NCBI GenBank assembly: GCA_947503245.1
Contig: CANNCV010000001.1
Location: 495,501 to 559,500, forward strand
Direction of reading: 5' to 3'
DNA from: an uncultured Sphingomonadaceae bacterium
GTDB taxonomy: Bacteria > Pseudomonadota > Alphaproteobacteria > Sphingomonadales > Sphingomonadaceae
DNA length: 64,000 bases
Part shown: in pieces, positions 25,660-29,969 of the stretch
How positions within the stretch are numbered: position 1 is the stretch's first letter
Layout of the letters: each line of letters starts with the position of its first letter
Made by a program: the position numbers and the translations under genes
The notes under the pieces: model-generated
Told to the model about the DNA's origin: nothing
Database searches by the model: none
What the model saw: only the letters and a program-made list of their open reading frames with translations

Positions 25660-25882
25660 TCGGCCTGTCCCTTGATCCAACCGGGGCAGTGACGCATTTA
25701 TGAAAAAATATGGTTAGGATAGAGTTAAGGCTATTCGGTTTTTTCTATTTTCGCGCTGTGGGGCAGTGATTTTGGTGAGAAAGCGGCCAAAAGCATCTGG
25801 CTTCGACAAAAACCTTATGCCGTTCGACCAGCCAATACCGCCATTAACGACAAATGGCCCGTATTTCTGCTATGCAATCTTT

Positions 25883-27040
25883 ATGACGAACAAAAAACCG
25901 CAATTGCTGCGCAAACCAGCCGTAGATGTGCAAGTGGCTATGCTGTCTATTCTTGGCTTCTGGCTATTCTATGTCATTGTCACAACATTGCGGTCTTTGA
26001 TGATTGAATTGCCCGTCTCTCAGGTCGAGCTCGCAAAGCTACGCGTTATCGTCACCTTATTTGGCATTGTCGCAACATTCGGCCTTTACGGCCTTATCCG
26101 GCTGTTCGAAAAAAGGCGGCTCAGCGTACGCATTGCCAGTGCTTTTGTCGGTGCTGTCCCTTGTGCCTTGTTGATCGGCATTATCAATTATGAGGTGTTG
26201 AACCTTTACGATCCGGCCAGCCTGTTTAACGATCAAAAAGCGCTGGAGGAATTTCAGAAACTGTCGCCACTGGCGCTGATTATGGATGTTGCCTCGTCGC
26301 GCTATTTCTTTCTTGTCGCATGGGCCTCGCTTTATCTGGCCATCAGCTATGCCGGTGAAGTACGCTTTGCTGAGCGGCGCGCTGCCCGTTTTGCCCAAGC
26401 AGCGCAACAGGCCGAACTGCGCTCCTTGCGTTATCAGGTTAACCCGCACTTTTTGTTCAATACATTAAATTCTCTATCATCGCTTGTGCTGCGCAATCGT
26501 CCGCAAGAGGCTGATGAAATGATCATGAACCTGTCGACATTTTATCGCACCAGCCTGTCGGGAGATCCGCTTGATGATGTGACATTGTCTGAAGAGGTGG
26601 AGTTACAACGTCTTTATCTGGCGATTGAAAAAGTCCGCTTTCCAGAGCGGTTGCAAATCGACATCGCTATAGCCGAACATCTGATGGATGCCTGTGTGCC
26701 TGGTTTGATCCTGCAACCATTGGTTGAAAATGCCATTAAATATGGTGTGTCGCGTTCCAGTCGCCCTGTCACCGTATCTATTCGTGCGCATGAAGAGAAT
26801 GGCTGTCTATCGATATCTATTGCCGATAATGGCGATCCGTTATTGGCTGATATTGATCCAGAAACCAGTAACGGCATAGGTTTGGCAAATGTGCGCGATC
26901 GGCTGGACACGCGCTTTGGTGGCAACGCCAAACTGACCACCATGCCCAAAGCTGAGGGCGGCTTTGAAGCGGTGCTGACCATTCCGCTCACCCGCTCACA
27001 AATACAGATTGAACAATTATCCGCACGGGTCGATGCATAA
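25883..27040 (+). CDS. LytS/YehU-type sensor histidine kinase
   Basis: A 385-residue membrane kinase. Four hydrophobic segments lie in the first about 180 residues (for example AMLSILGFWLFYVIVTTL and VTLFGIVATFGLYGLI). The His_kinase domain (PF06580) follows, with the phosphoacceptor in RYQVNPHFLFNTLNSLSSL. The N-box is LILQPLVENAIKYGV and the G-box is SNGIGLANVRDRLDTRFGG. It pairs with the LytTR regulator at 27171. The start is uncertain: an in-frame GTG at 25766 would add 39 residues. Confidence 0.88.
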   Translation: MTNKKPQLLRKPAVDVQVAMLSILGFWLFYVIVTTLRSLMIELPVSQVELAKLRVIVTLFGIVATFGLYGLIRLFEKRRLSVRIASAFVGAVPCALLIGIINYEVLNLYDPASLFNDQKALEEFQKLSPLALIMDVASSRYFFLVAWASLYLAISYAGEVRFAERRAARFAQAAQQAELRSLRYQVNPHFLFNTLNSLSSLVLRNRPQEADEMIMNLSTFYRTSLSGDPLDDVTLSEEVELQRLYLAIEKVRFPERLQIDIAIAEHLMDACVPGLILQPLVENAIKYGVSRSSRPVTVSIRAHEENGCLSISIADNGDPLLADIDPETSNGIGLANVRDRLDTRFGGNAKLTTMPKAEGGFEAVLTIPLTRSQIQIEQLSARVDA

Positions 27041-27170
27041 TATTTGATAAAATCATAGGGCAGCAGGCTGAAGGGTATATAGCCGCTGCTCAGTTACGAT
27101 TAATGGCAAGGGACCATTACAAAGCTGTCATGGCCCGTTGATATGGCCGGATAGTGATAAAGGGATGACT

Positions 27171-27920
27171 ATGGTCAGGACAATGATTGTTGATGATGAG
27201 CCGCTTGCAGTTGAGCGGTTGCAGCTTTTATGTGCGCAGGTTGATGAGCTGGCGCTGGTGGGAACCGCTGGCGACGGCGTAACGGCATTACGAATGGCCG
27301 AGGCACTGCATCCGCAATTGTTGCTGGTTGATATCAATATGCCACAAATGGATGGCATGGCGCTTGCGCGGGCTTTGGCGGAGTCTGAGCAATCACCTGC
27401 TATCATTTTTATCACGGCATATGACAGTTTTGCGGTTGAAGCTTTTGATCTGGCAGCGGTCGATTATTTGCTAAAGCCTGTATCGCTTGATCGCCTTAGC
27501 CGCGCAATAGAAAGAGTGCGTGAGCGGCTACATGCTGGAACTGAGAATGGCTCAACTGATACTCTGCCATCGCCATCAGATAATGATCAATGGGCCCGCG
27601 AATTCTGGGTGCCGCATCGGTCCGAGTTAAAGCGTATTGATGCAGTGCAGATTGATCGTGTTGAGGCAGAGCGCGACTATATGCGCTTACATGTTGGGAG
27701 CCGCAGCTATCTTTTGCACGAGACCATAAAAATATTGGAAGAGCGATTAGACCCTGCCCAATTTATGCGGACGCATCGCTCTCATATTATTCGCAAAGAT
27801 TTCATCAAGGGATTGCGCCATGAGGGCGGCGGCGTTTGGTTGACCGTATTGAAAGATGATACCGAGCTTAGAATTGGCCGCACCTATTTGACACAGGTTA
27901 AACAGCTGGCTGGGCGTTAA
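27171..27920 (+). CDS. LytTR-family response regulator
   Basis: A 249-residue regulator. The receiver domain has MIVDDEPLAVERL with the acidic pair, the phosphorylation Asp in LLLVDINMPQMDGMALARAL, and KPVS in VDYLLKPVSLDR. The C-terminal LytTR DNA-binding domain runs from about residue 145 and includes VEAERDYMRLHVGSRSYLLH and FMRTHRSHIIRKDFI. It is the partner of the upstream kinase, 130 nt away. The start MVRTMIVDDE follows AAAGGG at proper spacing. Its targets are unknown; the small peptide and UrcA genes nearby are candidates. Confidence 0.92.
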   Translation: MVRTMIVDDEPLAVERLQLLCAQVDELALVGTAGDGVTALRMAEALHPQLLLVDINMPQMDGMALARALAESEQSPAIIFITAYDSFAVEAFDLAAVDYLLKPVSLDRLSRAIERVRERLHAGTENGSTDTLPSPSDNDQWAREFWVPHRSELKRIDAVQIDRVEAERDYMRLHVGSRSYLLHETIKILEERLDPAQFMRTHRSHIIRKDFIKGLRHEGGGVWLTVLKDDTELRIGRTYLTQVKQLAGR

Positions 27921-27951: not shown

Positions 27952-27993
27952 AATCAAAAACCGGCGGACACTGTGTGCCGCCGGTTTTTGATT
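27952..27993. terminator. Bidirectional Rho-independent terminator
   Basis: A long near-perfect palindrome: AATCAAAAACCGGCGG pairs with CCGCCGGTTTTTGATT. An A-run on the left and T-run on the right serve both strands. It ends the LytTR regulator (plus) and the 26-codon peptide gene (minus). Confidence 0.9.
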
Positions 27994-28048: not shown

Positions 28049-28129
28049 TTACGCCAATAGGCCTGGGATAACCGAAGCGGTGATGACAGCTGAGGCGATA
28101 AAGGCGACCAATTTTGTTGTACGTTGCAT
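28049..28129 (-). CDS. 26-residue hydrophobic peptide gene
   Basis: A 26-codon frame starting ATG at 28129-28127 and ending TAA at 28051-28049. It starts MQRTTKLVAFIASAVITAS: a basic N-terminus, then a single hydrophobic helix ending VIPGLLA. A good GGAG ribosome-binding site lies 8 nt upstream. A perfect hairpin ACCCTG-ATA-CAGGGT (28156-28170) is in the leader and a strong terminator is downstream. The complete gene-like layout supports a real small membrane peptide. No family is recognised. Confidence 0.5.
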   Translation of the reverse strand: MQRTTKLVAFIASAVITASVIPGLLA

Positions 28130-28170: not shown

Positions 28171-28326
28171 TGAAAAGACAGCAATTTATGTGAGTTACCG
28201 CCCTTTTGTGCTTACAATATGGGTTTCGTAGGACACATTGGAACGGTTACAAAACAAGTAATATTATTTCTCTCAAAAACAATAAAAATTATATTAGAGA
28301 GATATAAAGTTTCTCTATCATGGAAT

Positions 28327-28369
28327 AAAAAAGGCTGCACCAACACCAATTTGGGTGGGTACAGCCTTG
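28327..28369 (-). terminator. Rho-independent terminator of the urcA-like gene
   Basis: On the minus strand AAGGCTG pairs with CAGCCTT, with an inner ACC/GGT extension, followed by six T. It lies just after the UrcA-family gene. Confidence 0.8.
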
Positions 28370-28754: not shown

Positions 28755-28789
28755 CTGTCATTCCTCTTCATATTGCGGCCGTAACCTTC

Positions 28790-29100
28790 GGGGCAGTGGA
28801 GGCATGCGGCCTGTTGGGGCGATGCAATAAAGGGATTTTGCTACATCGCCCCGGGTTCAGGATTGTGAGGAGACCGCTATAAAGTCCGGGGCTTGGGCGG
28901 CCCGTTCTGAGCCTCCTCACTCTTTCTTTATAGGTGAGAAGGCTTAGCGGGTCGCCGTGCATTCGATGGACCGCCCTGCACAGACGCCTCTTGGCGTTGG
29001 TCGCGACGAACAGCTCTTTATCGTCGACAAGTGTTTACGAAATGAAACAATTGCAGAGTTTCATCGGCTAGATATTACGTAATTGCATCGCAGATTATAA
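28790..29100 (-). ncRNA. Strongly structured, pseudoknot-capable leader or ncRNA upstream of the urcA-like gene
   Basis: This 441 nt gap (28755-29195) has no convincing gene but dense structure. GTGAGGAG (28865-28872) pairs with CTCCTCAC (28913-28920), and CTATAAAG (28877-28884) pairs with CTTTATAG (28926-28933). The two helices interleave, as in an H-type pseudoknot. CTCCTCAC with its flank can instead pair with GTGAGAAGGCT (28934-28944). Other perfect stems: GGGGCGATG/CATCGCCCC (28818-28854), ACGCC/GGCGT (28984-28997), CGACGA/TCGTCG (29006-29028) and ATGAAAC/GTTTCAT (29042-29064). The strand is inferred from an extended -10 at 29094-29102. No named riboswitch recognised. Confidence 0.45.
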
Positions 29101-29102
29101 CA
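29094..29102 (-). promoter_or_regulatory. Extended -10 promoter element
   Basis: On the minus strand the sequence reads TGTTATAAT, a TGn-extended perfect TATAAT. It would start transcription near 29086 and produce a leader of about 330 nt ahead of the UrcA-family gene. No good -35 is seen, as is usual for extended -10 promoters. Confidence 0.45.
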
Positions 29103-29195: not shown

Positions 29196-29969
29196 TTAGA
29201 TCAGACCTGCAAGTGGGCTTGAAGGATCGGCATAGCGGCGGCGCCCCATGCGCCCGGCAAGATAGGCATGTCTTCCTGCCTCCACGCTCAGCTTCATCGC
29301 TGTGGCCATACGCACAGGGTCACTGGCCTCCGCAATCGCGGTGTTCATAAGAACGCCATCACAGCCCAATTCCATGGCAATGGCTGCGTCTGATGCCGTG
29401 CCCACGCCTGCATCAACCAATACCGGCACATTTGCGCCTTCAACGATAAGCCGAATTGTGACCTGATTCTGGATGCCCAGACCAGAGCCAATTGGCGCAC
29501 CCAAAGGCATGATAGCAACCGCACCTGCATCTTCCAGCCGTTTTGCTGCTATGGGGTCATCAACACAATATACCATGGGCTTAAATCCCTCTTTGGCTAA
29601 TATTTCTGTGGCGCGCAGGGTCTCAACCATATCGGGGTAAAGGGTTTTCGCCTCCCCTAACACTTCCAGCTTCACCAGATCCCAACCACCAGCTTCACGC
29701 GCAAGCCTTAAGGTGCGGATGGCTTCGTCCCCGGTGAAGCAACCGGCAGTATTTGGCAAATAGGTGATTTTTTTGGGATCGATAAAATCTGTCAGCATGG
29801 GAGCGCTGGGATCAGAGACGTTGACGCGCCGGACAGCCACTGTGACAATTTCCGCACCAGATGCTTCAACAGCTGCGGCATTTTCGGCAAAATCTTTATA
29901 TTTGCCAGTGCCGACAATCAGCCGTGAGCTGAATATATGGTCTGCTACTGTCCAGCTATCGTCCGTCAT
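29196..29969 (-). CDS. thiG: Thiazole synthase ThiG
   Basis: A 257-residue TIM-barrel enzyme that forms the thiazole phosphate of thiamine from DXP, dehydroglycine and ThiS-thiocarboxylate. Typical segments: [12 protein letters not shown] near the start, [20 protein letters not shown] with the catalytic Lys, [15 protein letters not shown] for phosphate binding, and [20 protein letters not shown]. It follows thiS by 90 nt. No TPP riboswitch was recognised upstream of the pair. Confidence 0.97.

Follow-up and report, generated by a model that had tools for sequence, protein, structure and literature searches.

A structured leader with C-rich hairpin loops precedes UrcA-family genes of Sphingomonadaceae behind predicted LytTR-type operator repeats

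The region described here lies within a 64,000-nucleotide stretch of contig CANNCV010000001.1 from an uncultured Sphingomonadaceae bacterium (the window). On its minus strand, thiG is followed by a leader region and by a gene for a small exported-type protein (Table 1). The ORF of this gene scores 75.3 bits against TIGR04433, for which the cut-off is 25, and is thus assigned to the UrcA family. The gene is present as a single copy in the source genome, and UrcA proteins were found in 142 of the 199 Sphingomonadaceae genomes sampled; to our knowledge, no function has been ascribed to them. A LytTR response regulator, encoded by a convergent neighbour of UrcA, is a candidate activator, with a LytS-like histidine kinase as its candidate partner. 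The order thiG, leader, UrcA and convergent LytTR regulator is preserved in both of the congeners compared, each of which has a LytTR-domain ORF at the matching place beside UrcA. At two loci from other genera (L044 and L036), LytTR-domain ORFs likewise adjoin UrcA, which suggests that the linkage of LytTR and UrcA is wide.

Three further features were seen between UrcA and the LytTR regulator. All three congeners carry a hydrophobic microprotein ORF of 26 codons with a good Shine-Dalgarno sequence, whose product is probably an unannotated small membrane protein. At the congener loci L034 and L035, the palindromic GCGAAATTAAATTTCG is conserved 5' of this ORF and is perhaps its promoter region. 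In the window, a near-perfect hairpin (AAAACCGGCGG..CCGCCGGTTTT, 27955-27990), flanked by A and T, lies after the LytTR gene and likely terminates transcription in both directions.

Table 1. Features of the UrcA locus; positions are those of the window unless another locus is named.
Feature	Position	Strand	Evidence or remark
thiG	29196-29969	minus	Upstream boundary of the leader intergenic region
LytTR-type direct repeat 1, TTGTCGACG	29022-29030	minus	21-bp GTCG repeat statistics
LytTR-type direct repeat 2, TTCGTCGCG	29002-29010	minus	21 bp from repeat 1; conserved in congeners
Third conserved box, GCGGTCCATCGAAT (consensus GGTCGAAGC)	28961-28974	minus	Aligned position in homologues
−10-like element CTATAAAG, also helix 2 arm	28926-28933	minus	Conserved position 5' of H1
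Hairpin 1 (H1)	28865-28920	minus	Fold z = −2.9; covariation across genera
Hairpin 2 (H2), arms 28841-28852 and 28816-28827, loop AUCCC	28816-28852	minus	z = −5.7
Third hairpin, window	about 28785-28797		Weaker
Third hairpin, L035	about 1750-1795
Third hairpin, L034	about 1684-1712
Shine-Dalgarno-like AAGAGG of UrcA	28763-28768	minus	Sequence reading
UrcA-family small exported-type protein, 120 aa	28392-28754	minus	TIGR04433, E = 3e-21
Intrinsic-terminator-like hairpin and T run, 3' of UrcA	28325-28368	minus	Fold −23.2 kcal/mol, then TTTTTT
Microprotein ORF, window	28049-28129	minus	Product MQRTTKLVAFIASAVITASVIPGLLA
Microprotein ORF, L034	about 2363-2443	plus	Product MAIANKALFALIAATVSLASIQTLIF
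Microprotein ORF, L035	about 2507-2587	plus	Product MTLGYKLMFALTAATVSLASIQAIIV
LytTR response regulator, candidate activator	27138-27920	plus	PF00072 5.6e-24, PF04397 1.1e-17
LytS-like histidine kinase, candidate partner	25766-27040	plus	PF06580 3e-26

Measured against dinucleotide shuffles, the thiG-UrcA intergenic region has a fold z of −3.75 on the minus strand and −3.64 on the plus strand. A sequence-only reading had proposed that this region encodes a pseudoknot-capable RNA directed into the UrcA-family gene, with mutually exclusive folds acting as a switch. All three of its minus-strand helices are present in the window: helix 1 (GTGAGGAG/CTCCTCAC, 28913-28920 with 28865-28872), helix 2 (CTATAAAG/CTTTATAG, 28926-28933 with 28877-28884) and an 11-bp alternative with one G-U pair (AGCCTTCTCAC/GTGAGGAGGCT, 28934-28944 with 28910-28920). 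Perfect 8-mer pairs with a gap of 20-120 nt number three, against 0.32 expected from mononucleotide shuffles, 2% of which reach three. Nevertheless, helix 1 alone appears to be biologically real: it is retained in congeners with compensatory changes and forms the stem (P1) of H1. Helix 2, the pseudoknot partner, is specific to the window and missing from all 17 other homologous leaders, in which the longest complement to the −10-like octamer runs to 3-5 nt, no better than in shuffles. Moreover, its 5' arm is the local −10-like element and would therefore probably be absent from the RNA; this part of the proposed pseudoknot probably belongs to the promoter DNA. The 11-bp alternative is absent from the two congeners, as read from an alignment of the three leaders, and the extended −10 (TGTTATAAT, 29094-29102) put forward as the promoter is unconserved in congeners. 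Searches of Rfam 15 at gathering and permissive thresholds matched no family to the leader, either here or at the 15 homologous loci searched, in keeping with the earlier remark that no known riboswitch consensus was recognised. Hence, although the window does contain two perfect interleaved helices of 8 bp and an alternative of 11 bp, we give next to no credence to a pseudoknot riboswitch, the interleaving being unconserved, and a switch as the mechanism is not supported. Since helix 1 is conserved while helix 2 and the proposed promoter are not, the region reads as a structured 5' leader instead.

H1 comprises the long P1 stem, an asymmetric internal loop, an inner stem of 3-5 bp and a C-rich loop. 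In the window, the inner stem (GGGC/GCCC, 28900-28903 with 28889-28892) closes the loop CGCCCAA (28893-28899); among homologues, several genera share GCU-CCCCA-RGC as inner stem and loop, another genus has UUCCCC above a stem of 3-5 bp and yet another has GUU-CCCA-GAC, and the fold z of H1 ranges from −1.8 to −6.0. The sequence-only reading had called for a covariation check in homologues, and covariation of H1 proved to be strong. Across 12 sequences from five genera, 13 of 15 pairs are changed on both sides, and the covariation score is 0.914, compared with 0.255 ± 0.04 for shuffles, none of which reached 0.914 in 500 trials. This alignment was fitted by hand to the structure, with N-padded spacers and every row verified as contiguous genomic sequence; the 95% of its cells that are paired, versus 28-53% in slid versions, is a figure inflated by that fitting. 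An 18-row model alignment gives similar covariation. An alignment made from sequence only, within one genus, yields the same two hairpins, with 4 of 35 pairs changed on both sides, and two of the eight P1 pairs are doubly changed between the window and congener G001 (U-A to C-G, G-C to A-U). The window's own inner part and loop are the most diverged copy, and its H1 was not matched by any of our covariance models R1, R2 and R3. Covariation that keeps pairing across homologues, albeit in an alignment fitted to the structure, supports H1 as a real structure and upholds the earlier proposal of a structured RNA on the minus strand directed into the UrcA gene.

H2 recurs in homologues at a similar distance after H1, its stem GC-rich and its loop C-rich (UACCCUUUU, GACCCUUA, CCCCCUU or UACCCCA), and its structure is supported by fold energy together with this recurrence. 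In minimum-energy folds of 30 leaders that have the 21-bp repeat discussed below, CCCC-containing hairpin loops occur in 63%, versus 19% of shuffles, and GGGG loops in 0%. In congeners, a third hairpin with a UCCCCGA loop (GGACC-AUUCCCCGAA-GGUCC) lies directly 5' of the UrcA Shine-Dalgarno sequence. No intrinsic terminator (hairpin and U run) was found between 28755 and 28920, which does not fit an attenuator. As pairing is conceivable between loops rich in C and ribosome-binding sites rich in G, and the two lie close together here, the loops might sequester the Shine-Dalgarno sequence of their own UrcA mRNA. However, the duplex energies of the loops with that sequence are no better than with those of other species, and loop 1 pairs more weakly than with a shuffled Shine-Dalgarno while loop 2 is about equal; such sequestration in cis is therefore very improbable.

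Upstream of the hairpins lie direct repeats with the consensus CGTTCGTCG; the two-repeat consensus is CGTTCGTCGA-N11-CGTTCGTCG, with a further GTCGAAGC-like third box. GTCG repeats exactly 21 bp apart are found in 30 of 93 UrcA upstream regions, compared with 1.45 ± 1.1 in 200 shuffled sets (maximum 4). The repeat resembles the AlgR box CCGTTCGTC, another LytTR operator. Canonically, LytTR regulators bind 9-bp direct repeats with a spacing of 10-13 bp (PMC11347149). A LytTR-regulated promoter is expected to have a pair of direct repeats of about 9 bp, 10-13 bp apart, upstream of the −35; the UrcA repeats, at 21 bp start-to-start, agree with this pattern, and by sequence they form a LytTR-type operator of UrcA, with regulator binding predicted. 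Matches of 22-27 nt in dozens of genomes (query 181-205) are short, fall over the operator boxes and are not relied on. The −10-like element, about 96 nt downstream of the first repeat, is weak, and a clear −35 is missing; in several genera, its counterparts (CTATCCA, CTATCAA, GTATAAC, CGTAACC) keep their place 6-11 nt upstream of P1. If, as this conserved position suggests, 28926-28933 is the −10, the mRNA would start at about 28919-28921 and P1 would be 5'-terminal.

In the way of classic stabilising 5' stem-loops, the hairpins may be a 5'-terminal stabiliser or decay barrier alone, with the C-rich loops incidental. The distance of H1 from the −10-like element, which would place it at the 5' end, argues for this, as do stems that conserve pairing rather than sequence. 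On the other hand, the stem is less conserved than the loop with its inner stem (GCU-CCCCA-RGC), and C4 loops are three-fold above shuffles. We thus regard a stabiliser alone as unlikely, though well worth considering.

The three-leader alignment of the window and two congeners shows the blocks GTCGACGATAA / TTCGTC, then TATAA, then a hairpin holding CGCTCCCCAAGCC (GGCCGCCCAAGCC in the window) and a second one, GGGG(A)CG..CG(U)CCCC. In other genera, UrcA genes have this leader layout too, some with thiG upstream; it is also present in Sphingomonas sp. 35-24ZXX, Sphingomonadales bacterium EhC05 and two uncultured Sphingomonadaceae, all four located through thiG. The seed model R1, from one genus, was too narrow; for R2, the alignment was made by hand with N padding, as MAFFT displaced the stems. 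R2 was searched over 199 kb (the window and UrcA loci), and each of its 19 matches up to E = 10 falls on a UrcA leader; seven matched loci lie outside its seed (L040, L071, L102, L055, L162, L154 and L038), and of these L055, L162, L154 and L038 belong to two genera that the seed lacks. Over 397 genomes, R3 gave at least five matches at E ≤ 0.02, and each is followed directly by a UrcA ORF; since 15 candidates per genome were scored, recall is low and absence there means little. Every covariance-model match found, in at least seven genera, is upstream of a UrcA gene. The pattern TAGCTCCCCAGGCC gave seven matches, five of them UrcA leaders; another (G031) lies within coding sequence and the last (G137, same genus) is taken to do likewise. 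No leader turned up in the viral contigs scanned. A coding leader was rejected, as the frames of a 64-aa ORF (28768-28962) are broken in congeners by stops and frame switches; so was a repeat or REP/MITE element, the region being present once in the source genome. Sequence comparison supports an element that is conserved and structured, has mRNA orientation, lies behind LytTR-type repeats and is UrcA-specific in the matches found.

The leader could also be the precursor of a trans-acting sRNA that uses its C-loops to block other mRNAs at their G-rich ribosome-binding sites, in the manner of RsaE and RNAIII with their UCCC motifs. Its C-rich loops are duplicated; in Staphylococcus aureus, such seeds bind Shine-Dalgarno sequences (PMC9217828), and in an alphaproteobacterium, sRNAs derived from UTRs are common (PMC8625941). 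Against it, the stretch from H2 to the UrcA gene lacks an intrinsic terminator, and the leader is always joined to UrcA in the matches found, which makes this origin quite unlikely.

The explanation towards which we lean is a LytTR-activated UrcA promoter with a 5' leader whose C-loops bind a trans factor. A LytTR response regulator, probably the convergent neighbour, would bind the direct repeats resembling CGTTCGTCG, which are spaced 21 bp apart, and activate transcription from the −10-like element. The transcript would then carry H1 at or very near its 5' end, followed by H2 and the Shine-Dalgarno sequence. The C-rich loops would most likely serve as recognition sites for a trans factor; in H1 they read CCCC or CCCA and are closed by a short inner stem, and in H2 they are of the CCCCUU or ACCCUU type. 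The factor, whether an RNA-binding protein or a G-rich RNA, may set the stability or translation of UrcA mRNA, while the 5'-terminal stem probably also shields the transcript from decay. A broader reading, decidedly doubtful at present, is that a LytTR-switched family of multi-hairpin C-loop RNAs serves across Sphingomonadaceae as a docking or sponge platform, with the UrcA leader as its carrier; the ligand would be a C-specific RNA-binding protein or a G-rich sRNA, mirroring the GGA-loop/CsrA system.

A limited literature search found no description of the UrcA leader. We conclude that it is an uncatalogued structured bacterial mRNA leader, its transcription being predicted from sequence. It links many UrcA genes to LytTR-type operators and, as an RNA element not listed in Rfam, is defined well enough to be tested. 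Should the C-loops share a common factor, a new post-transcriptional regulator in Sphingomonadaceae could emerge.

Several known systems invite comparison. The loops of CcsR RNAs are C-rich, as are those of the UrcA leader. CcsR or 'cuckoo' RNAs are also alphaproteobacterial hairpins linked to a small-protein gene (PMC10253847, PMC8625941). However, CcsR lies 3' of the coding sequence for DUF1127, within the UTR (CIN1 locus), has a Rho-independent terminator and is processed by RNase E, whereas the hairpins described here lie 5' of UrcA, with neither DUF1127 nor a terminator and with CCCC/CCCUU loops; the downstream gene is UrcA (TIGR04433). RsaE and RNAIII of Staphylococcus aureus share with the leader duplicated UCCC(C) motifs for G-rich pairing (PMC9217828), but they are stand-alone Firmicutes sRNAs of unrelated sequence, while the UrcA element is an mRNA leader. 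The LytTR operators of RcoM and CoxC (PMC11347149) consist, as at UrcA, of tandem direct repeats two helical turns apart; the UrcA operator differs in having several extra boxes, and its regulator binding is predicted. Finally, the Caulobacter urcA promoter (PMC8963506) places an UrcA-family gene under a two-component system (UzcRS), as proposed here, although it does so through UzcR m_5 half-sites (CATTAC-N6-TTAA) in contrast to the 21-bp GTCG repeats of the UrcA leader.
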